This document shows positions 32,729 through 43,136 of a stretch of DNA of 53,301 nucleotides, in pieces. Source of the DNA: Oscillospiraceae bacterium (lineage in GTDB: Bacteria; Bacillota; Clostridia; Oscillospirales; Acutalibacteraceae); NCBI GenBank assembly GCA_015066005.1, contig SVPF01000015.1:1-53301 (forward strand), written 5' to 3'. Position numbers and translations under genes: made by a program. The notes below the pieces were generated by a model. It did not search any database and was not told the DNA's origin. It saw only the letters and a list, made by a program, of their open reading frames with translations. Each line of letters opens with the position of its first letter. The first letter of the stretch is position 1.

Positions 32729-33760
32729 TTATTTAAGCGTATCGGCAATTTTATAAATAAGGTCCTTACTCTTTTCCCAACCGAGACATGGGTCGGTAAT
32801 TGACTTACCGTAGCAGTGCTCACCGATTTTTTGTGCGCCGTCCTCAATATAGCTTTCAATCATAAGACCTTTAACCATTTTTCTAATATCACTGTTGTGG
32901 TTACAGCTGTAAATAATATCCTTAGCAATGCGAATTTGTTCAAGATACTTTTTGCCCGAATTTGCGTGGTTACAGTCAACAACACAAGCAGGATTTAAAA
33001 GGTCGGTTTTAGCATAAAGATTATAAAGGTTTTGCAAATCTTCATAATGGTAGTTTGAAACACATTTGCCTGCCGAGTCAATATAACCGCGCATAATTGC
33101 GTGTGCAAGCGGGTTACCTAAGCTTGTAACCTCCCATCCACGATAAATAAAGGTGTGGGAATGCTGAGCAGCAGTAATCGAATTCATCATAACCGACAAA
33201 TCACCGCCGGTGGGGTTTTTCATACCAACAGGAACATCAATGCCACTTGCAGTTAAACGGTGCTGTTGGTTTTCAACCGAGCGCGCACCAACTGCCACAT
33301 AACCTAAAAGGTCGGAAAGATAACGGTAATTGTCAGGGTAAAGCATTTCATCGGCACAGGTGAAGCCATAATTCTTAAGTGCTGACATATGTAAATCACG
33401 AATTGCCAAAATACCCTCAAGCATATCGGGAGTTTTATCAGGGTCGGGCTGGTGAAGCATACCCTTGTAGCCATCACCTGTGGTACGGGGCTTGTTGGTA
33501 TAAATACGGGGCATAATTAAAATTTTGTCCCGAACCTCATCGGATACCTCTTTAAGTCTTCCGATATAGTCAAGCACGCTGTCCTTACTGTCAGCCGAGC
33601 ATGGACCGATTACAAGTATAAATTTATCACTTTCACCTTCAAAAATAGCTTTAACCTCGGCATCTCTTTCAGCCTTAATTTTAGCCAAATCCTCAGTTAC
33701 GGGGTAACGGGTTTTAATTTGTTGCGGTACGGGTAATTTTCTTTTGAAATCCAAATTCAT
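32729..33760 (-). CDS. aroF: 3-deoxy-7-phosphoheptulonate synthase, class I (AroFGH type)
   Basis: The 343-residue enzyme condenses PEP and erythrose-4-phosphate, the first step of the shikimate pathway. Motifs include VIGPCSADS, MPRIYTNKPRTTGDGYKG, GARSVENQQHR, VGMKNPTGGD and DCNHANSGKK with metal ligands. It is of the bacterial AroFGH type, whose members are usually feedback-inhibited by an aromatic amino acid; which one cannot be told. Although catalysing the first step, it is the last of nine genes and overlaps tyrA by four bases. Confidence 0.94.
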   Translation of the reverse strand: MNLDFKRKLPVPQQIKTRYPVTEDLAKIKAERDAEVKAIFEGESDKFILVIGPCSADSKDSVLDYIGRLKEVSDEVRDKILIMPRIYTNKPRTTGDGYKGMLHQPDPDKTPDMLEGILAIRDLHMSALKNYGFTCADEMLYPDNYRYLSDLLGYVAVGARSVENQQHRLTASGIDVPVGMKNPTGGDLSVMMNSITAAQHSHTFIYRGWEVTSLGNPLAHAIMRGYIDSAGKCVSNYHYEDLQNLYNLYAKTDLLNPACVVDCNHANSGKKYLEQIRIAKDIIYSCNHNSDIRKMVKGLMIESYIEDGAQKIGEHCYGKSITDPCLGWEKSKDLIYKIADTLK

Positions 33761-34614
33761 TTTTTATCAAACCTCTTTCGGCGGTAGGTAGAAAGGCGCA
33801 TCATTTCTCGCATACCTTCCCTATCTTCAGCTTTAATTTTATTGTATAATTCATCAAACGATTTTCTGAAGCATTCCATTTCGTAAAGCAGGTAATCCTT
33901 GTTATTTAAAAACAGTTCACTCCACATTTCGTCATTAATTTGCGCAATTCGGGTTAAATCCCTGAAGGAGTCACCCGTATAATATTCCATACCTGAAATG
34001 TTATTACAGCACATAAGCGATACCGCAATACAGTGGGTTAGCTGTGATAAAAAGGCAATCATTTTATCGTGGCTTTCAACCGACAATTCGGCAATCTGCT
34101 TAAAGCCCAAGGTTTCGCCAAGCTCACAGCAAAGCTCAATTGCCTTGTGGCTATTTTTATCAGTCGGAACAACAATATAGTTAGCATCTGAAAAATTAAC
34201 GCCGTCACTGTGTTTAACACCGCTCATTTCTCTACCTGCCATTGGGTGTGCAGCGATAAATTCAAGGTCGGGGCGCAACATATCCTGAATTTTATAAACG
34301 ATACTGCCCTTAACGCCCGTAACATCGGTAATAATCGCTCCGCTTTTTAGAAGAGACTGGTTATTTTCAATCCATTCAACAAAAATATGCGGATAAAGTG
34401 CAAAAACAACTAAATCAGCCTTGCCGATTAAAACGGCATCAAGCTCGGTTGTGCCTTCATCAATTATGCCGTTTTCAAGAGCAAACTGAATATCCTCTTC
34501 ATTTTTAGTTATTGCCGAAACCTTGAAGCCTTTTTTTCTTAGGGCTGTAGCATAGCTGCCACCCAAAAGACCAAGACCGACAATAAGTATATTTAAATCC
34601 TTACTAAGTCTCAT
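33757..34614 (-). CDS. tyrA: Prephenate dehydrogenase
   Basis: The 285-residue NAD-dependent enzyme oxidatively decarboxylates prephenate to 4-hydroxyphenylpyruvate. It has the nucleotide loop VGLGLLGGSYATALRKKGF, AHPMAGREMSGVKHSD with an active-site His, and the helical C-terminal domain (FLSQLTHCIAVSLM, SFRDLTRIA). There is no ACT domain, so tyrosine control probably acts elsewhere. It overlaps aroA by 11 bases and the DAHP synthase gene by four. Confidence 0.93.
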   Translation of the reverse strand: MRLSKDLNILIVGLGLLGGSYATALRKKGFKVSAITKNEEDIQFALENGIIDEGTTELDAVLIGKADLVVFALYPHIFVEWIENNQSLLKSGAIITDVTGVKGSIVYKIQDMLRPDLEFIAAHPMAGREMSGVKHSDGVNFSDANYIVVPTDKNSHKAIELCCELGETLGFKQIAELSVESHDKMIAFLSQLTHCIAVSLMCCNNISGMEYYTGDSFRDLTRIAQINDEMWSELFLNNKDYLLYEMECFRKSFDELYNKIKAEDREGMREMMRLSTYRRKRFDKK

Positions 34615-35824
34615 TTAAAGTAATAACCTCCGTCTTTATACCAAGGGAATTAAGCCTTTCAAAATAATCGGGAAAGCTTTTTGAAACGGCTTCGGCACCG
34701 TAAATTTCACCGCCATAAACGGATGCCACAACCGAAAGCGCCATTGCAATACGGTGGTCGTTATGGGACGAAAGAGGTAATTTGGGCGAATATAATTCAC
34801 ATTTCGGTACCGCAATTTTATTTTCAAAAACCTTTATATCACAGCCAAATTTTGAAAGCTCCTCTGCCATGGCGGCGCCACGGTCGCTTTCCTTAATTTT
34901 CAGGCGGCGTGTGCCTGTGAACACAGCACCGTTTTTAAGTGCGGCCGAAGCTATAAGCACGGGTGCCAAATCGGGACAGTCACTTATATCGAGCGTGGGG
35001 GCACCCTCCCTAATTTGAGCCAACATTTTTTTATAAACCCTGTCGCCCTGTGCACTGATTTTTGAAAGATTAGACACCACAACATTACCGCCAATTAAAT
35101 TAAAGGCTTCCAAAAACGCGGCGTTTGAATAATCACCCTCAACCTTTAAATCACGGCCTTTATAGGTTTGGTTTCCTTTTATATAAAAGGTTCGTTCATC
35201 ATAACGAGTAATTTGTACGCCAAAATCGGCAAGGGCCTTTACCGTTAAATTAAGATAAGATGCGCTTTCCAAATTACCTGTAATTTCAATAATACTGTCC
35301 TGCTGTAAAAGCGGTAATGCAAACATTAAGCCGCTTATAAATTGGCTTGAAATATCTCCGCGAACGGTGTATTTGCCGGCTGATAGCTTTCCGCAAAGTG
35401 AAAGTGAGGTTTCACCCTGCTTAAAGATTATGCCTTGGCTTTTGCAAATTTCATCATAAACTGCAAGCGGCCTTTCCATAAGGCGCTGTGAACCACCTAA
35501 GGTAAAGGGCTGACCAAATAACAAACAAAGCGGTATTAAAAAGCGTAGCGTACTGCCGCTTTCGTTACAAAAAAGCACTTGAGAAGCGGCTGTTTTATTT
35601 ATATCAATACCGCCAATAGTAACGGTATCGCCTTCAATAACAATTTTGGCTCCTAAAGCCTTTAAGCAACTAAGGGTTGCCTCAATGTCCTTTGAAAAGG
35701 CAACACCGCTTATAACGCTTTGCTTTGAAAGCGCACCGCAAATTAAAAGGCGGTGTGCCATGCTCTTACTTGGCGGTGCATTAACACGGCCAAACGCACT
35801 TGAGGGGGAAATTCTGACTATCAT
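34604..35824 (-). CDS. aroA: 3-phosphoshikimate 1-carboxyvinyltransferase (EPSP synthase)
   Basis: The 406-residue enzyme shows PPSKSMAHRLLI at the N terminus, ESGSTLRFLIPL, the LGGSQRLMERPL loop, GDISSQFISGLMFALPLL, the active-site DCPDLAPVL, and RIKESDRGAAMAEEL with HNDHRIAMAL. It adds the enolpyruvyl group to shikimate-3-phosphate. The LGGSQRLMERPL loop is unlike the LPGSKSLSNR-type segment of other enzymes only in position, so class assignment is left open. It shares one base with aroQ and overlaps tyrA by 11. Confidence 0.94.
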   Translation of the reverse strand: MIVRISPSSAFGRVNAPPSKSMAHRLLICGALSKQSVISGVAFSKDIEATLSCLKALGAKIVIEGDTVTIGGIDINKTAASQVLFCNESGSTLRFLIPLCLLFGQPFTLGGSQRLMERPLAVYDEICKSQGIIFKQGETSLSLCGKLSAGKYTVRGDISSQFISGLMFALPLLQQDSIIEITGNLESASYLNLTVKALADFGVQITRYDERTFYIKGNQTYKGRDLKVEGDYSNAAFLEAFNLIGGNVVVSNLSKISAQGDRVYKKMLAQIREGAPTLDISDCPDLAPVLIASAALKNGAVFTGTRRLKIKESDRGAAMAEELSKFGCDIKVFENKIAVPKCELYSPKLPLSSHNDHRIAMALSVVASVYGGEIYGAEAVSKSFPDYFERLNSLGIKTEVITLNET

Positions 35825-36261
35825 TATTTATCACCGCAGTTTTTAAGCAAAAAATCAATTGCTTCGTTATAACCGTCAAAGCCCTTACCTATAACCGATG
35901 CTATGCAAGCGGGGCGTATATAACTTATTTGACGGAAATCCTCACGGGTAGAAACATCCGAAATATGAACTTCTACCGTCGGCACACCTACCGATTTTAC
36001 CGCATCCAAAAGTGCGACACTTGTGTGGGTATAAGCACCGGGATTTATAATAATGCCGTCAAATTTGTTATAGGTTTTCTGAATAGCGGTTACTAGCTCT
36101 CCCTCGCAATTGGACTGAAAAAACGAAACCTTTACATTCTTTTCCTTGGCATAAGCCTTAATTTTAGCGCATAAATCCTTATAGGTTTTATTGCCGTAAA
36201 TTTTCGGCTCGCGAATACCAAGCATATTAAGGTTTGGACCGTTAATTACCAAAATTTTCAT
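35824..36261 (-). CDS. aroQ: 3-dehydroquinate dehydratase, type II
   Basis: The 145-residue dodecameric-type enzyme begins with INGPNLNMLGIREP, has the catalytic Tyr at KIYGNKTY, FFQSNCEGELVTAIQ, INPGAYTHTSVALLDA with conserved Asn, EVHISDVSTREDFR with catalytic His, and ends with the IGKGFDGY helix. It dehydrates 3-dehydroquinate to 3-dehydroshikimate. Its first 20 bases lie inside the aroE-aroK gene. Confidence 0.96.
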   Translation of the reverse strand: MKILVINGPNLNMLGIREPKIYGNKTYKDLCAKIKAYAKEKNVKVSFFQSNCEGELVTAIQKTYNKFDGIIINPGAYTHTSVALLDAVKSVGVPTVEVHISDVSTREDFRQISYIRPACIASVIGKGFDGYNEAIDFLLKNCGDK

Positions 36262-37477
36262 TTAAAAAGCCTTCTTTAATTCTTTTAAGGTTTGTATTTG
36301 TGTCGCTGTCGGCGTTAATTCTTACATCACACGACAGGCAATAGGTTGCATATCTTTCATAATAACGCTTTTCCAAAAGCTCACGGCTTGAGGAAAGGGG
36401 TCTGTCGTCAGTTGTAATAAGCAAATCAAGCGGGCGGTCAATAAAAATTATACTGCCGTTTTGCTTTAGCGCTTCAACATTTTCTCGCCTTAAAATCACA
36501 CCGCCGCCTGTTGCAATTACAAGGCCTTGTTTGGTTGATAATTCAGCAACAACCTTTGCTTCAAGGTCGCGAAAATACTCTTCACCGAACTTTTCAAAAA
36601 TTTCAGGAATAGGCATATTTGCAGCCTTTACAATTTCATCATCAGTATCAACAAAGGTTTTTCCTAATTCCTTTGATAAAAGCTTACCAAGGGTGGTTTT
36701 ACCGCAGGACGGCATACCAATGAGCACAAGACTTTGCTTATCTTTAAATATTTCATTAAAAGCGTTTGTTGTAATTTCTTTTTCTAAAAATATTTCAGCC
36801 GCCTTAACCGCTTGCATATAAAGCATATAAAGACCGCCAACAGCCTTTATTCCCTTTTTATGCGCGTCAAGCACAAGACGGGTTTTTAATGGATTATAAA
36901 CAACATCAACCACCGCTTCAATGCTTGAAAAATTTTCCAAGTTAATTGGTGTATCACTGTTATTCGGGTACATACCACAGGGGGTTGTGTTTATTATTAT
37001 TTCAGGCTTAAGCTTTAAAGCCTCGGTGTAGGTAACAAACCCTTCCCCGTCCTTGCGGGATGCAATAAAAATTTCTTTTGCACCAAGACTTTTACAAACC
37101 GCATTTGCGGTTTTTGAAGTGCCGCCGCTGCCCAAAATTAAAACAATTTTATTTTTAATTTCAATATTGTTATATTCAATTAAGCCTTTAAGACCGTAAA
37201 AATCGGTATTATAGCCATAAAGCTTACCGTTTTTATTAACTATTGTATTAACAGCACCAATGCTTTTTGCTTCAGCGCTTATTTCATCAAGGTAAGGTAT
37301 AACCGCTTCCTTATATGGAATTGTTACGTTTATACCGCAAAAATCGCGCTTTTGCATAAAAGCATCTAAATCAGGCCTTGCAATTTCAAAGAGGTCATAA
37401 TCATAATCGGTAATTTTAGAATGAACAACCTTAGAAAAGCTGTGGCCTAACTTTTCACCGATAAGTCCGTACTTCAT
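36242..37477 (-). CDS. Shikimate dehydrogenase-shikimate kinase fusion (AroE-AroK)
   Basis: The 411-residue protein joins two enzymes of the pathway. Residues 1 to about 243 are AroE: GEKLGHSFSK shikimate site, NVTIPYKEAV with catalytic Lys, YNTDFYGL with Asp, GSGGTSKTA nucleotide loop and YMLYMQAVKAAEIF with Gln. From about 250 it is AroK: LIGMPSCGKTTLGKLL Walker A, VDTDDEI, FRDLEAKVV, ATGGGVI and the lid TDDRPLSS. The two reactions are consecutive except that AroK follows AroE directly, so the fusion could channel shikimate. It overlaps aroC by four bases and aroQ by 20. Confidence 0.95.
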   Translation of the reverse strand: MKYGLIGEKLGHSFSKVVHSKITDYDYDLFEIARPDLDAFMQKRDFCGINVTIPYKEAVIPYLDEISAEAKSIGAVNTIVNKNGKLYGYNTDFYGLKGLIEYNNIEIKNKIVLILGSGGTSKTANAVCKSLGAKEIFIASRKDGEGFVTYTEALKLKPEIIINTTPCGMYPNNSDTPINLENFSSIEAVVDVVYNPLKTRLVLDAHKKGIKAVGGLYMLYMQAVKAAEIFLEKEITTNAFNEIFKDKQSLVLIGMPSCGKTTLGKLLSKELGKTFVDTDDEIVKAANMPIPEIFEKFGEEYFRDLEAKVVAELSTKQGLVIATGGGVILRRENVEALKQNGSIIFIDRPLDLLITTDDRPLSSSRELLEKRYYERYATYCLSCDVRINADSDTNTNLKRIKEGFLNENFGN

Positions 37478-38565
37478 TTAACCCACCAGTCCGTTCCGAA
37501 TTTGGCGGTCAATGCATCGCAAAGGGTAATTGCAACCATACTGTCAACCACAACACGAGCACGGTGAACAATACAGGGGTCGTGCCTACCTTTTGATTCT
37601 ATAATTGCATTAACATTTTCTTTAAAATCAACAGTAGCCTGAGGCTGTGAAATAGTAGGAGTGGGTTTCACGGCACAGCGAAAAATAACAGGCATTCCGT
37701 TTGAAATACCGCCGTTTATACCACCATTGTTATTGGTTTTAGTAACAATTTTACCGTCATTTATTTCCAAAGAATCGTTCGCTTTAGAGCCCAATAAATC
37801 GGCAATGCCAAAGCCCAAGCCAAACTCAACCCCCTTAACTGCGGGAATTGAAAAAAGCGCGTGGGAAAGCATACCTTCAAGTGTGTCAAACCAAGGCTCG
37901 CCCACACCAACGGGCAAACCCAAAACTACAGTTTCAAGCACACCGCCAACGCTGTCGCAATTAGCCCTTGCTTCTGTTATGGTCGACTGCATTTCTTGAC
38001 CTTTTTTACTGTCCAGAACAGCGAAGGTCATATTATTTATCGCATCAATTTCGGTTTCATAGTCCGAAAAAGGCGCATCACTGACACCGCCGCATTTTGA
38101 AATGTGTGTGCCAATTTTAATTCCCTTTTGCTTTAAAGCTGAAATTGCAATTGCACCCACGGCAACAATACCTGTGGTTACTCGACCGCTAAAGTGACCG
38201 CCACCACGATAATCCTCAAAACCGTGATATTTTTCATAGGCCACATAATCGGCATGGGACGGGCGGGCTAAAAACCTGTCAAGTGCATAGTCCTTCGATT
38301 TTGTGTTTTCGTTAGGTACAACAATACAAATGGGTGTGCCGGTTGTAAAGCCATTATACACTCCGCTGTATATAATATAGTCATCCGCCTCAACACGAGG
38401 GGTTGAAATTGCACCTGACGGGCGGCGGAGTGATAGCTGATGATTTATAAATTCCTCATTAACAGGTATACCTGCAGGCATACCGTCAAGCACGGCACCA
38501 ACACCTGCACCGTGGCTTTCACCGAAAACGGTAACCGTTACATTTTGTCCTAAACTGTTTTTCAT
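37474..38565 (-). CDS. aroC: Chorismate synthase
   Basis: The 363-residue FMN-dependent lyase shows the family signatures GESHGAGVGAVLDGMPAG, the RPSGAISTPRVEAD segment, GHFSGRVTTGIVAVGAIA and, near the end, CAVKPTPTISQPQATV and RHDPCIVHRARVVVDSM. It converts EPSP to chorismate. Overlaps of four bases with aroB and aroE-aroK show translational coupling. Confidence 0.97.
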   Translation of the reverse strand: MKNSLGQNVTVTVFGESHGAGVGAVLDGMPAGIPVNEEFINHQLSLRRPSGAISTPRVEADDYIIYSGVYNGFTTGTPICIVVPNENTKSKDYALDRFLARPSHADYVAYEKYHGFEDYRGGGHFSGRVTTGIVAVGAIAISALKQKGIKIGTHISKCGGVSDAPFSDYETEIDAINNMTFAVLDSKKGQEMQSTITEARANCDSVGGVLETVVLGLPVGVGEPWFDTLEGMLSHALFSIPAVKGVEFGLGFGIADLLGSKANDSLEINDGKIVTKTNNNGGINGGISNGMPVIFRCAVKPTPTISQPQATVDFKENVNAIIESKGRHDPCIVHRARVVVDSMVAITLCDALTAKFGTDWWVK

Positions 38566-39554
38566 TTTAAAATCACTTCTTTAAGCTCATCTAAATTCAT
38601 TTTTTTAATTTCATAACTGCCGATTTCCTCTACCCAAATAACCGAAATACTGTCCCCCGCTTTTTTCTTATCATGGGACATAAAATCAATTATTTTATCG
38701 GCATCAATTTCGCAAGAGGTGGGCAAATTTAGTCTTTTTAAAGCCTTCATAATACGTGGCTTTACCTCATCACTGCAAAGATAAAGCATACCAAGACCGA
38801 CACATTCACCGTGATAAAGGCTTCCAAGGTTCACGCTTTCAATTGCGTGACCGATTGTGTGCCCGAAGTTTAACACCTTCCTAACACCCTGCTCCTTTTC
38901 ATCCTCTTCTACAACCTGCCTTTTAAGGCGAAGACTTTGTTCAATAATATAATCAATATTAAGCTCATCATTTTCAAAGTGCGAAAAGAATTCACTATCA
39001 AATGTGGCGGCCATTTTAAGCGCTTCACAAAGGCCATTATTCACTTGGCGCTGTGGCAAGGTTTTTAGTGTGTCGGCATCAATTATAACTGCCTTTGGCG
39101 GATAAAACGCGCCAACAATGTTTTTAACACCGCAATAGTCAATTGCAACCTTGCCGCCAATTGAAGAATCCACCTGAGAAAGCACGGTTGTTGGAATGTT
39201 ATAAAAATCAATCCCTCGCATATAGGATGCGGCGGCAAAGCCAGCCATATCACCCGTCACACCGCCACCAACGGCAACAACGCAGTCGCTTCTTGTAAAG
39301 CCGTTTTTAACAAGCTGCGTTAAAATTGCCTGATAAGTGTCAAAATTTTTGGATTCCTCGCCCTGTAAAAAGGTGTAAATATGGCCTTCCTTACATTGAG
39401 CCGCTACAGCTTTAGCATAATTTTCGGGTACGCCGCTATCGGTTACAACAAGCACCTTGCGGTCAAGATTTAAATACTCTTTTAAATCGTTTAAAACGCC
39501 GCGGCTTATAACAATGTTATATTCCCCTACGGATGTTTTGGTTTTAAGTATCAT
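38562..39554 (-). CDS. aroB: 3-dehydroquinate synthase
   Basis: The 330-residue NAD- and metal-dependent enzyme shows VVAVGGGVTGDMAGFAAASYMRGI, the NIPTTVLSQVDSSIGGKVAID stretch, and FGHTIGHAIE with metal-binding histidines. It cyclises DAHP to 3-dehydroquinate. It overlaps pheA and aroC by four bases each. Confidence 0.97.
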   Translation of the reverse strand: MILKTKTSVGEYNIVISRGVLNDLKEYLNLDRKVLVVTDSGVPENYAKAVAAQCKEGHIYTFLQGEESKNFDTYQAILTQLVKNGFTRSDCVVAVGGGVTGDMAGFAAASYMRGIDFYNIPTTVLSQVDSSIGGKVAIDYCGVKNIVGAFYPPKAVIIDADTLKTLPQRQVNNGLCEALKMAATFDSEFFSHFENDELNIDYIIEQSLRLKRQVVEEDEKEQGVRKVLNFGHTIGHAIESVNLGSLYHGECVGLGMLYLCSDEVKPRIMKALKRLNLPTSCEIDADKIIDFMSHDKKKAGDSISVIWVEEIGSYEIKKMNLDELKEVILK

Positions 39555-40639
39555 AAAACGACTTCCTTTTCGAAGTTACCGATAATTCTTAAATCACTGC
39601 ACTTTTCTTTAAGCTCAGAAAGCATTTTCTTACCCTCATTACTGTTAATATTACCTTCGCCTTCAACAAAGAAATAATAATTCCAAATAAGCTCTTTAGT
39701 AGGACGGCTTTTAAGCGCCTTAAGGTTAAAGCCGTTTTCACCGATAATAGAAATTGCTTTACCGAGTGAACCTGCTTCGTTAGTAACCGTAAACAGTAAA
39801 ATAAAATGGTTGTCTGCCTTTGAGGGCGCTTTTGCTGTGCGAGAAAATACCGCAAAGCGTGTTGTGTTATTACTGCTTTGATTAATATGTGCTTCAAGTT
39901 TTACAAGACCGTGCTTTTCGGCAGCTTCTTCACTTGCAATAGCCGCAATATCAAGTCTGCCGCTTTCGGCTACCTGCTTTGCCGCAACCGCAGTGTTGAC
40001 AGCTTCAATTGCCTTAAAGCCGTGCTTTTTAATATAATCATTACACTGCCCCAAGGCTTGCGGATGGCTTATAACCTCTTTTATACTCGAAAGAGAAGCC
40101 CCCTTATTTGCCAAAAGGTTTTGTATAACCGAAATATCATAAACGCCGTTTATGTAAAGGGGACCGAAAAACGCAAGGTCCATTACCTGACCCACATCCC
40201 CGTTAAAGCTGTTTTCAATGGGTAAAATTACACAGTCACAAACGCCGTCAACTACTGAATTATAAGCCGACTTAAAATCAGGATAAGGTACGGCTTCGGC
40301 ATCGGGAAAAACCTTATTTGCCGCAATATTGGCAAACGCACCCTCTACACCGCTGAAGGCAACCTTCATACCCTCTAAAAGCCTGTGCTGATAGCGCTTT
40401 GAAACATCCATATTATGTGTTATAAAATCAACATAATATGATTTAATTTCCTCATCAGTAAAAGCGGCAACGTTACGGGCAAGCACCTCCGCCTCACGCT
40501 GAGCATCGTATACCTGAATGCCGTGAAGCTTTTTATATTCGGCCACAACCCTTGCGGCTTGCATTCTTTCCAAGAAAAGCTGACGCATTTGGGTGTCTAC
40601 TTCGTTGATTTTCTGCCTTGCTTTTTCAAGGTCGGTCAT
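39551..40639 (-). CDS. pheA: Bifunctional chorismate mutase / prephenate dehydratase
   Basis: The 362-residue P-protein has an AroQ-type chorismate mutase helix bundle (about 1-85; LEKARQKINEVDTQMRQLFLERM, VYDAQREAEVL), a prephenate dehydratase domain (VAFSGVEGAFANIAA to the catalytic NNTTRFAVFSR) and a C-terminal ACT domain. The phenylalanine-binding ESRP motif reads KSRP, and GALV reads GSLG. Feedback by phenylalanine is expected for the family. The product is phenylpyruvate. It overlaps the aminotransferase and aroB genes by four bases each. Confidence 0.95.
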   Translation of the reverse strand: MTDLEKARQKINEVDTQMRQLFLERMQAARVVAEYKKLHGIQVYDAQREAEVLARNVAAFTDEEIKSYYVDFITHNMDVSKRYQHRLLEGMKVAFSGVEGAFANIAANKVFPDAEAVPYPDFKSAYNSVVDGVCDCVILPIENSFNGDVGQVMDLAFFGPLYINGVYDISVIQNLLANKGASLSSIKEVISHPQALGQCNDYIKKHGFKAIEAVNTAVAAKQVAESGRLDIAAIASEEAAEKHGLVKLEAHINQSSNNTTRFAVFSRTAKAPSKADNHFILLFTVTNEAGSLGKAISIIGENGFNLKALKSRPTKELIWNYYFFVEGEGNINSNEGKKMLSELKEKCSDLRIIGNFEKEVVL

Positions 40640-41817
40640 TTATATTCCTCCATAAGTGCCTTAAAGGCGGGTAAAGATTTTTCAATTTGGCTATAGCTTA
40701 CGCAATAGCTTATACGAACATAGCCTTCATACCCGAAGCTGTCGCTTGGAACAAGCAAAAGCTCGTACTTCTTTGCCCTTTCACAAAATGCGGCGGCATC
40801 ACTTTCGGGGGATTTCATAAACAGATAAAACGCACCGTCAGGCTTTGCACATTCATAGCCATATTCTACTAAAGCATTATATAAAGCATCACGGTTTTTC
40901 TTGTAGGCTTCAACATCACCCGTAAGACCGATGCATTCCTTTACAGTGTACTGTAAAAGGCTTGGTGCGCAAACATAGCCAAGTGCCCTGCCCGCACCGC
41001 AAACAGCGGCGTAAATATCAGCCGCAATATCGGTTTTAGGAGATACAAATATATATCCTATGCGCTCACCGGGAAGTGATAACGATTTACTGAACGAATA
41101 GCAAACAATTGTATTGTCGTAAAAATTGGGTATATAAGGCACGTCCACACCGTAAGCAAGCTCACGGTAGGGCTCATCACAAATTATATAAATTGAAGTA
41201 CCGAATTCAGCCTGCTTTTTATTTAGTAATTCGCTAAGCTTTATTACGGTTTCCTCAGATAACACAACACCTGTGGGGTTATTGGGCGAATTAACAATAA
41301 TAGCCTTAGTGTTTTTGTTTATTGCGGCTTCTAAAGCGGCAAAGTCAATTTGGAAGTCACTTTCACGGCATTTTACAACCTTAAAGTTTGCTCCTGCCTT
41401 TTCGGCAAATACACGGTATTCGGGAAAAAACGGCGCCAAGGCGATAACCTCATCCCCTGTATTTACAAGTGCGTTTAGGGTTATTGTAAGGGATGCGGCC
41501 GCACCGCAGGTCATATATATTAAATCAGGGCTTGAGGAAGCGCCGAAACGGTCGGTAATGCTGTCGCTTATTGCCTTTCGAACTGTGGGGTCACCCTGAG
41601 CCGAGGTATAACCGTGAAGCTTTACGGGGTCAGTATCCTTAATAAGTCGCGCCATAATTTCCGACACCTTTTCAGGTGCGGGAATGCTGGGGTTTCCAAG
41701 GCTGAAGTCAAGCACATTTTCAGCACCGATTTCGCTTCTGCGTTTGTTACCGTATTCAAAAATTTCACGAATTACCGAACGCACCTTACCAAGCTCGGTC
41801 ATTTTTTGATTTATCAT
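40636..41817 (-). CDS. Aspartate/aromatic aminotransferase, class I/II (PLP)
   Basis: The 393-residue enzyme has fold type I motifs: GYTSAQGDPTVRKAI, NSPNNPTGVVLS, CDEPYRELAYG with the ring-contact Asp and Tyr, the PLP lysine in YSFSKSLSLPGERIGY, and a C-terminal Arg (GYVRISYCVSY). As first gene of the operon it most likely transaminates phenylpyruvate and 4-hydroxyphenylpyruvate to Phe and Tyr; aspartate specificity is equally possible from sequence. GAGGAA precedes ATG 41817, and the attenuator terminator ends about 20 bases upstream. Confidence 0.88.
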   Translation of the reverse strand: MINQKMTELGKVRSVIREIFEYGNKRRSEIGAENVLDFSLGNPSIPAPEKVSEIMARLIKDTDPVKLHGYTSAQGDPTVRKAISDSITDRFGASSSPDLIYMTCGAAASLTITLNALVNTGDEVIALAPFFPEYRVFAEKAGANFKVVKCRESDFQIDFAALEAAINKNTKAIIVNSPNNPTGVVLSEETVIKLSELLNKKQAEFGTSIYIICDEPYRELAYGVDVPYIPNFYDNTIVCYSFSKSLSLPGERIGYIFVSPKTDIAADIYAAVCGAGRALGYVCAPSLLQYTVKECIGLTGDVEAYKKNRDALYNALVEYGYECAKPDGAFYLFMKSPESDAAAFCERAKKYELLLVPSDSFGYEGYVRISYCVSYSQIEKSLPAFKALMEEYK

Positions 41818-41836: not shown

Positions 41837-41892
41837 AAAAAATAAAAAGCCCGTAATAACCATGCAAAACAAAAGCATGATAACTACGGGCT
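41837..41892 (-). terminator. Attenuator terminator of the aromatic operon
   Basis: On the minus strand AGCCCGTA (41892-41885) pairs with TACGGGCT (41855-41848) and GCATG/CATGC (41879-41875 reverse and 41865-41861) with a ttttgtttt-type loop; the GTTAT/GTTAT between them pairs through G.U and A-U with one mismatch. A U run (UUUUUAUUUUUU) follows, and the first structural gene starts about 20 bases later. A competing pairing of 8 positions, 7 complementary, is possible between 41945-41952 (in the leader peptide) and 41886-41893 (5' terminator arm). Confidence 0.88.
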
Positions 41893-41922
41893 GAATGCAT
41901 TTATTAAAGGCATAACTTTTAA

Positions 41923-41994
41923 TTATGCTTTAACAGTGTACAGACAGTCCGTGCAAGTAAAGTAATAAAATCGAAAATATGAATTTACGAACAA
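41923..41994 (-). CDS. Phe/Tyr-rich leader peptide of the aromatic operon (attenuation)
   Basis: A 23-codon frame starts at TTG 41994, ten bases after AAAAGGAAGTGG, and ends at TAA 41925-41923. Phe occupies positions 2, 7, 9 and 12 and Tyr positions 6, 10, 11 and 19, with the run FRFYYF at 7-12. Eight aromatic residues in 23, ahead of a terminator and a Phe/Tyr biosynthetic operon, is the signature of ribosome-mediated attenuation as in enterobacterial pheL. The stop codon lies in a small hairpin (GCATAA/TTATGC, 41910-41928). An in-frame GTG three codons upstream is the alternative start. Confidence 0.82.
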   Translation of the reverse strand: MFVNSYFRFYYFTCTDCLYTVKA

Positions 41995-42025
41995 CCTGTC
42001 CACTTCCTTTTTTAAGATATAGTGT

Positions 42026-42054
42026 ATTTTACTCCTATAAAGTGAAAATGTCAA
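42026..42054 (-). promoter_or_regulatory. Promoter of the aromatic amino acid operon
   Basis: Minus-strand perfect TTGACA (42054-42049), 17-base spacer, TAAAAT (42031-42026). Transcription would start near 42019, giving a leader of about 200 bases that holds the leader peptide and terminator. Confidence 0.82.
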
Positions 42055-42113: not shown

Positions 42114-43136
42114 CTATTCAATTTCAAGCTCTTTAAGTGAACGCATTTGATAGTCAACATTCTTTAAAAGCTCGGGTTTTTTAATTGCCACCGCGGCGCC
42201 CTTTACAACGCTGTGCGCAGGGTCATCCATTTGGTGAACCTTAATCTTTAAATAATCGGCGATTCTTTCCGCAAAGCCTGAAAGCTTTGAGCCGCCACCC
42301 GTTAAATACATACCGTCGTTCATAATATCGGCAACTAAATCGGGGTCGGTTTTATTAAGCACCTTGCGAATAGCATTACAAATTGATTTAATTGTGTCAT
42401 CAATAGCTTCGTACACTTCACCGGAAGTAATTTCAAAGCTTTCCGGCAGACCCGAAAAAATATTACGACCCTTTGCAATCATTGCAATTTCGACATCACG
42501 CTTTATAGCCGAGCCCACCTTCATTTTAATAGCTTCGGCAGTAAGCGGACCAATTTCAATATTATATTCGTACCTTACATAACGAATAATTTGTGAATCA
42601 AAATCAAATGATGCAATTTTAAAGGAATCGCACGCAGCAATACCACCCATTGAAATTACCGCCACGTCGGTAGTACCTGCACCAATATCAACAATTAAAG
42701 TGCCGTGCGGCTTTGAAAAGTCAAGTCCTAAGCCAAAGGCTATTGCCAAAGGACCCTCTACAACGGTTATGTTTCGTCCGCCTGCGGCTTCCACAACGTT
42801 TGAAAGTGAATGGTGCTGAAGCTCGGTAAGACCTGCAGGCAGCGTTGCAATTATGCGTGGACGCAAAATGTTATTGCCAAACGCCTGCTGCATATAGTCC
42901 CGAAGCATAAGCTCGGTTAAGTCATAATCCGAAATAACGCCGTGTTCAATTGGGTAAACGCTTAACATACTGTCGGGTGTTCTGCCAATTGTTTGCTTGG
43001 CCTTTTCACCAAAATAAATAGGCTCCCAAGTCTCACTATCAACCGTAACAACGCTTGGCAATTCAACAACAACCTTCGAGCTGGAAAATATTACAGTTTT
43101 CGAAGAGCCTAAATCTATACCAATATCGGTAGCCAT
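42114..43136 (-). CDS. mreB: Rod-shape-determining actin homologue MreB/Mbl
   Basis: The 340-residue protein has the actin-fold phosphate loops GIDLGSSKTVI and VDIGAGTTDVAVIS, the adenosine motif MYLTGGGSKLSGFAERIA, and PAGLTELQ-HSLSNVVEAAGGR typical of MreB. It forms membrane-bound filaments guiding lateral wall synthesis. It shares one base with comF. No mreC or mreD follows, so it may be a second MreB-family paralogue. It is the last gene of the cdaA operon. Confidence 0.93.
   Translation of the reverse strand: MATDIGIDLGSSKTVIFSSSKVVVELPSVVTVDSETWEPIYFGEKAKQTIGRTPDSMLSVYPIEHGVISDYDLTELMLRDYMQQAFGNNILRPRIIATLPAGLTELQHHSLSNVVEAAGGRNITVVEGPLAIAFGLGLDFSKPHGTLIVDIGAGTTDVAVISMGGIAACDSFKIASFDFDSQIIRYVRYEYNIEIGPLTAEAIKMKVGSAIKRDVEIAMIAKGRNIFSGLPESFEITSGEVYEAIDDTIKSICNAIRKVLNKTDPDLVADIMNDGMYLTGGGSKLSGFAERIADYLKIKVHQMDDPAHSVVKGAAVAIKKPELLKNVDYQMRSLKELEIE

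Follow-up and report, generated by a model that had tools for sequence, protein, structure and literature searches.

The E. coli pheL-pheA operon is regulated by attenuation, and annotation and folding place a Phe-rich leader peptide before pheA, together with competing hairpins and a terminator. Bacteria such as Clostridia usually use other sensors to control the Phe/Tyr pathway. We describe here a candidate attenuator in a Clostridia genome, located on the minus strand of a 53,301-nucleotide stretch from an Oscillospiraceae bacterium (contig SVPF01000015.1, hereafter the window), flanked by a gene that ends at 42114 and by an aminotransferase gene that starts at 41817 and opens an aromatic amino acid operon. 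A promoter-like site, a conserved open reading frame (ORF) rich in Phe and Tyr codons, alternative pairings and a terminator precede this operon, and we judge it highly probable from the sequence that the leader is a ribosome-mediated transcription attenuator sensing tRNA-Phe and tRNA-Tyr charging. A first-pass annotation of the same DNA had proposed such an attenuator; the conserved Phe/Tyr codons and covarying alternative pairings reported below argue for this proposal, which we extend to operons led by pheA and by DAHP synthase.

Ribosome-mediated attenuation by His leaders has been predicted in Firmicutes, namely in the Bacillus cereus group, the Peptostreptococcaceae and the Erysipelotrichales (PMC9413887, PMC2965389); by their descriptions, these leaders differ from ours in the amino acid and in the genes involved. 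The Staphylococcus aureus ilv-leu operon has a Leu-rich leader peptide and a terminator/antiterminator system, with expression data, whose antiterminator is described as pairing with the U tail of the terminator, whereas that of the Clostridia leaders pairs with the terminator 5' arm (PMC5794164). In Acholeplasma, uORFC-13-1 is a candidate Phe-coding upstream ORF (uORF) before a terminator and aroF (DAHP synthase); its description, in the part available, covers 24 sequences from Acholeplasma and the environment with 'at least one' Phe and states no Tyr cluster (PMC8632094). A structured leader of Lactococcus lactis is known as the Leu/phe leader, RF01743 (PMC2864571). Finally, the aspC motif, SRC-45-1, is a group of more than 1000 sequences, environmental for the most part, found ahead of an amino acid aminotransferase gene, and the accessible part of its description mentions no uORF (PMC11109978); compared by description only, this motif might overlap with the Phe/Tyr attenuator family.

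We found no published Phe/Tyr leader-peptide attenuator of Clostridia in a literature search limited to open-licence papers. Elements of this kind are already known, from E. coli pheL and from Gram-positive His and Leu leaders; the Phe/Tyr family and its layout look new.

Anatomy of the leader

All features of the leader and its operon lie on the minus strand. The leader ORF (41923..41994) starts with TTG, encodes MFVNSYFRFYYFTCTDCLYTVKA and ends with a TAA stop codon at 41925-41923. The coordinates proposed for this 23-residue peptide hold, as does its content of 4 Phe and 4 Tyr, with aromatic residues at 6 of positions 6-12; Phe and Tyr codons are clustered and Trp codons are not. Codons 6-12 (41959..41979) form the presumed stall site. 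A Shine-Dalgarno-like AAGGAA is found at 42004..42009, 9 bases before the TTG, and the same position is purine-rich in aligned relatives too.

Three pairings involve four regions of the leader. Region 1 (GTGGACAGG, 41995..42003) sits between the ribosome site and the start codon and is the protector partner of region 2 in swap tests. Region 2 (41936..41952) pairs with region 3 through 41945-41952, the antiterminator core, and with region 1 through 41936-41947. Region 3 (CAGCCCGT, 41886..41893) has either region 2 or region 4 as a partner. The antiterminator pairing initially proposed, 41952-41945 with 41893-41886, forms at 7/8 positions, with one A.C mismatch; in our folding models, however, the antiterminator of the window is a long hairpin of 67 nt (41886..41952, -21.7 kcal/mol), beyond the first-described 8 bp. 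The intrinsic terminator (41837..41891) was correctly recognized as strong and placed just before the first gene: its stem, at 41891-41849, folds at -23.7 kcal/mol (z -6.88, reached by 0/200 shuffles) and is followed by a U run at 41848-41837, TTTTTATTTTTT. A strict terminator scan of the window did not list this terminator, because its loop has 9 nt and the scan allows loops of 3-8 nt. The entire 201-nt leader RNA folds with a z of -4.99 (0/200 dinucleotide shuffles).

Upstream of the leader, a promoter scan identifies a -35 box, TTGACA (42049..42054, also evident in the sequence), and 17 nt further a -10 box, TAAAAT (42026..42031). Together (42054-42026) they match 11/12 consensus positions, and the transcript would start near 42019. 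The scan returned 2 promoter-like sites, vs 1.8 in shuffles, so that only the quality of the match is notable.

Conserved Phe and Tyr codons

The comparison with orthologous leaders suggested along with the first-pass annotation was carried out on 75 related leaders, whose Phe/Tyr codons are conserved and whose remaining residues vary. Among their 1710 residues, we counted 279 Phe and 259 Tyr codons and a single Trp codon, and both Phe and Tyr are present in 74/75 leaders. The densest 8 codons contain a mean of 5.76 Phe/Tyr, vs 2.24 in base-shuffled ORFs, and the density exceeds 95% of a leader's own shuffles in 72/75 cases; peptides were chosen as the ORF richest in Phe/Tyr near a ribosome site, and the control is somewhat lenient because the chosen ORF stays fixed. 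Assigned starts are 64 ATG, 6 GTG and 5 TTG (for L004, an in-frame ATG upstream of its TTG was counted), and the TTG of the window occupies the position where most relatives have ATG. Start position, Shine-Dalgarno-like site and stop are all kept in relatives, and translation of the ORF is predicted.

These counts bear on two other readings of the locus. We may suppose that the leader is an ordinary one, that the terminator belongs to an upstream transcript and that the ORF arose by chance, TTT and TAT being common in A+T-rich DNA and the strict scans unimpressive when taken alone. The excess of Phe/Tyr over shuffled ORFs and the conservation in several families and three operon types speak against this reading, to which we give practically no credence; a chance origin of the arrangement in the window can be regarded as excluded by its recurrence in many relatives. 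Very improbable, too, is a metabolite riboswitch for Phe, Tyr or another ligand, with an aptamer that merely resembles an ORF. An aminotransferase-linked element, the aspC motif, has indeed been published as a strong riboswitch candidate (PMC11109978). However, the Clostridia leaders conserve start position, ribosome site, frame and Phe/Tyr residues while using both codons of each (TTT 234, TTC 45, TAT 172 and TAC 87), and their invariant columns fall in coding and pairing parts.

Alternative pairings

Pairing statistics were obtained from a 37-leader alignment, A2. Four near-duplicates (L087, L089, L090 and L104) and L101 were left out of A2 and A3; L054 was left out of the swap, pairing-count and fold analyses and kept in the codon counts. 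Conservation of both pairings in relatives, which had been named as a check of the attenuator, was then assessed: 2:3 and 3:4 covary over the same columns. Pairing 2:3 is formed in 78.7% of cells, vs 28-35% when one strand is slid by 1-3 columns. Forty-two cells are changed on both sides, vs 17.9 in shuffled alignments (0/500), the covariation score of 0.298 is reached by 0/500 shuffles, and 10/14 pairs are doubly changed in some leader. Pairing 3:4, which uses the same strand as 2:3, is formed in 95% of cells and has 16 doubly changed cells vs 4.9 shuffled (0/500); its covariation score is reached by no shuffle. Columns 138-143 are common to 2:3 and 3:4, so that two partners that exclude each other have been preserved for a single strand.

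The third pairing, 1:2, joins 41995-42003 with 41936-41947 and lies over the ribosome-site region of the leader. A fixed register for this pairing was rejected by the pairing count and shows no covariation; 1:2 therefore rests on swap tests, in which region 1 pairs better with region 2 of its own leader (-14.26 kcal/mol) than with swapped ones (-10.67 kcal/mol; 0/5000 permutations). The result was repeated with 28 pheA and DAHP-synthase leaders (own -15.09 vs -11.46, 0/5000) that had been found with models whose only pairs are 2:3, with no 1:2 pairs. In 30/38 leaders, the best 1:2 duplex involves at least 3/6 bases of the ribosome site. The register slides between lineages, with GGACAG/CTGTC in some and TAAAATG/CATTTTA in others. 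A precedent for such occlusion may be the trp leader, in which the RNA itself can mask the ribosome site, as Das reportedly found in 1983.

Stop codon and antiterminator

The stop codon had been placed in a small pausing hairpin. It does lie within a hairpin (41910..41928), a result replicated in the second leader set; in folds, however, this hairpin is not a separate element and corresponds to the tip of the antiterminator. When folded with regions 2 and 3, it extends into one long region 2-to-region 3 hairpin. Among 38 of 42 leaders (the four near-duplicates were left out), the stop codon overlaps the apical loop of the antiterminator in 25, vs 5.7 expected at random placement inside, and lies at most 4 nt from the loop in 34. 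For the second set of 28 leaders, overlap of stop and loop is found in 13, vs 4.6 expected, and a distance of at most 4 nt in 21. Counted from the first base of the last aromatic codon in the cluster, the antiterminator of the 38 leaders starts 5-11 nt further on (median 8.5).

A simpler version of the model, compatible with the attenuator favored here, would limit the switch to the Phe/Tyr codons, the 8-bp antiterminator and the terminator, and treat the stop-codon hairpin as a pause signal for the polymerase. In many of the 38 leaders, the hairpin does fold alone, without its 2:3 surroundings. Once regions 2 and 3 are included, however, a single long hairpin forms in these 38 leaders (z -2.3 to -7.8 vs mononucleotide shuffles), and the hairpin arms match within leaders; we regard the pause signal as possible and rather doubtful.

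The position of the stop codon is also the clearest difference from the pheL and hisL leaders. When E. coli pheL and hisL are folded towards the terminator 5' arm, the stop lies 5' of an antiterminator-like stem, for stretches picked by hand (with shorter ones, an earlier hairpin has the stop in its loop). In the Clostridia leaders, by contrast, the ORF runs through the antiterminator 5' strand and stops near its tip, and nine genes follow in the window. The peptides differ as well: that of E. coli pheL has no Tyr, whereas Phe and Tyr are balanced in the Clostridia leaders.

Proposed mechanism

We infer translation of the leader ORF, ribosome stalling, the switch and its dependence on Phe and Tyr supply from this arrangement. 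With uncharged tRNA-Phe or tRNA-Tyr, the ribosome would stop within codons 6-12, between regions 1 and 2, and the protector 1:2 could not close. Pairing 2:3, which starts about where the stalled ribosome would end, would then fold and capture the terminator 5' arm, and RNA polymerase would read into the operon through the antiterminated leader. When both tRNAs are charged, the ribosome would reach the stop codon, at or near the antiterminator tip in most folded leaders, and hold the hairpin open. Upon its release, 1:2 would close over the leader's own ribosome-site region, and region 3, left free, would pair with region 4 so that transcription ends. If the leader is not translated, 1:2 would form and the operon would be off.

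Several observations weigh against this model. Some pairing counts are less striking than those given above: for 2:3, the number of doubly changed pairs is reached by 30/500 shuffles and the number of pair types by 81/500, and for 3:4 by 171/500 and 399/500, respectively. The 2:3 pairing is also partly circular in leaders found with the covariance models R1 and R2 (see below), because these contain 2:3, and both swap tests and shuffles ignore relatedness. In a fixed register, 1:2 shows no covariation, with 24 double changes vs 25.6 shuffled, and is paired in 55.4% of cells vs 39.7-50.0% when slid. The window itself is not the best representative of the family. Its 2:3 duplex is weak (-14.3), includes a mismatch and ranks 35/42 in the swap matrix, its region 2 pairs better with region 3 of 34/41 other leaders than with its own, and its 1:2 pairing is average (rank 21/42). 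The stop codon of the window is 3 nt off the antiterminator loop, and a ribosome on this stop would presumably cover only distal region 2, given the footprint size that we assume. Finally, the TTG start of the window may allow little translation.

Distribution among relatives

The aminotransferase is present in 76/398 genomes of the family (E <= 1e-110), and we found the leader upstream of 19 of these 76 genes by combining a script scan with reading by eye. The scan covered up to 400 bases upstream of all genes (only about 200 for L086), with a threshold of 5 Phe/Tyr in 8 codons. The count of 19 is a lower bound, because all 76 upstream regions were scanned by script and only part of them read by eye. 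Leaders L034, L040 and L054 in the family, and L107 among the named genomes, were recognized by eye. We also used an alignment of 13 aminotransferases to scan named genomes, which gave at least 584 relatives, and took the best 80 of them; by their titles these are Clostridia, Oscillospiraceae and others, many from the ruminant gut. The leader is present in 29 of these best 80 relatives, 5 of which are genomes already in the family set; L108 is the copy of family genome G251, with its leader farther up, and L106 and L157 have almost no upstream DNA.

Covariance model R1 was built from 37 leaders and R2 from 72, loci of already included genomes being left out. R1 recovers the same 19 family leaders and one farther upstream, in G251. 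At this locus (L035/L108/L184, G251:C3), an intact leader lies about 330 bases from the aminotransferase, as if by insertion between terminator and gene. R1 has matches in 31/398 genomes of the family and in 31/394 drawn from the order, 27 of the latter outside the family and across six other families. R2 has matches in 8/291 genomes drawn from the class, of which 3 were already known, 3 are convincing (L225-L227) and 2 are unconvincing, and in 1/199 genomes drawn from the phylum, which is the window's own. These large scans used stricter filters, by which weak matches can be lost. We read individually 11 new matches in the family, 26 in the order and 5 in the class, leaving out G301 (1/31 in the family) and G494 (1/31 in the order). 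Two (L168 and L169) of four weak R1 matches in the window's own genome (E 0.2-1) were read and contain no aromatic ORF. R2 has no match at E. coli pheL; its single match in that locus (L236) lies elsewhere, with an E of 0.24.

The two unconvincing matches in the class were rejected. L228 has no leader ORF. L229 (G934:C4:660358-660475, minus strand; R2 E 5.9e-4), in another family of the class, carries a different, Tyr-rich ORF, MRKFTNIYYYYFAYYI, about 300 bases before a gene resembling an ABC-transporter substrate-binding lipoprotein; it may represent a Tyr attenuator of a transporter, unrelated to the leaders described here.

The same leader precedes pheA and DAHP synthase as well as the aminotransferase. 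The 75 leaders divide into 47 aminotransferase-first, 15 pheA-first and 13 DAHP-synthase-first operons. A tblastn search with the window proteins identified one of these three as the adjoining gene in 73/75; the remaining two leaders are short stretches excised upstream of an aminotransferase. We examined six longer stretches. Downstream of the leader, L231-L234 carry most of the pathway and L230 carries DAHP synthase and pheA; L235 is the aminotransferase-pheA copy of G270 that has no leader, the leader of this genome being located at another place, upstream of a different pheA-like gene. Genome G056 (locus L028) has an aminotransferase without the leader, yet the leader is found elsewhere, before DAHP synthase.

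The leader is missing in some close relatives of the aminotransferase, for example L091-L094, which are 76-78% identical to the query. Such relatives suggest that the leader has been lost or gained more than once. At these four loci, the aminotransferase lies directly behind the preceding gene, which is also its neighbor in the window (42114-43136) and appears MreB/Hsp70-like by eye.

Our best reading of these sequence comparisons is one homologous Phe/Tyr attenuator family, present in several Clostridia families and without an Rfam match. We lean somewhat further, towards an undescribed family forming one regulon over aminotransferase-, pheA- and DAHP-synthase-led operons, with an architecture of its own: a stop codon at the tip of an antiterminator opened from inside by the terminating ribosome, and a protector over the ribosome site. 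Part of the aspC candidates could belong to it.

The aromatic operon

The nine overlapping genes 3' of the leader are, in order, aminotransferase, pheA, aroB, aroC, aroE-aroK, aroQ, aroA, tyrA and DAHP synthase. NCBIfam assignments bear out the nine-gene aromatic operon that had been proposed, several of them below curated cut-off. The first gene (40636..41817) encodes a pyridoxal phosphate aminotransferase (PRK06836, above cut-off). It is followed by pheA (39551..40639), encoding chorismate mutase/prephenate dehydratase, whose best matches are below curated cut-offs; by aroB (38562..39554) and aroC (37474..38565), both above cut-off; and by an aroE-aroK fusion (36242..37477), below cut-offs, the halves of which match shikimate dehydrogenase and shikimate kinase. 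Then come aroQ (35824..36261, above cut-off), aroA (34604..35824, 276.8 bits for a cut-off of 287.25), tyrA (33757..34614, prephenate dehydrogenase, below cut-offs) and, as the last gene, a DAHP synthase of the aroFGH type (32729..33760, above cut-off). To judge by these assignments, the nine genes together cover the route to chorismate and the branches to Phe and Tyr.

T-box elements

No T-box had been seen at the leader in the first-pass annotation, and a search of the window against Rfam yields no family, T-box or other, at or above gathering score. Even at E <= 1, ten leader loci match none of the Rfam leader families, among them RF01743 and the gammaproteobacterial Phe leader, which we take to be one of the Rfam families. 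We therefore rejected a T-box identity for the leader, given the lack of a T-box match in the window and in these ten loci. When 20 leaderless aminotransferase loci were scanned at gathering score, only tRNA genes were found, and not the expected T-box.

The T-box model does match 8 places elsewhere in the window's genome, 7 of them over cut-off. Their downstream genes, named by eye from protein sequence and not by family search, are asnS, pheST, an HMGL-like gene, thrS, trpB, two genes of the HTH/cupin/AMP-binding type and, below cut-off, ileS. The T-box of locus L047 (1501-1733, minus strand, 118 bits) lies directly before the pheS-pheT-like genes and has, by eye, a UUC-like specifier. Two others (L050 and L052, contig C50), about 2.4 kb apart, have unusual targets: each precedes an HTH/cupin protein and then an in-frame sequence that resembles, by eye, an AMP-binding enzyme. 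It thus seems that tRNA-Phe charging is sensed through a T-box in the case of the synthetase and through the ribosome in the case of the pathway.

Conclusions

One Clostridia genome seems to read aminoacyl-tRNA supply both ways, through T-boxes and through a leader peptide. The family provides a natural set of variants for the question of how attenuators arise, move between genes and replace T-boxes. The layout with the stop codon at the antiterminator tip leads to a sharp, testable prediction on how a terminating ribosome would choose between RNA folds. For the bacteria themselves, the leader is a likely point at which gut Clostridia, many of ruminant origin, control their supply of aromatic amino acids.
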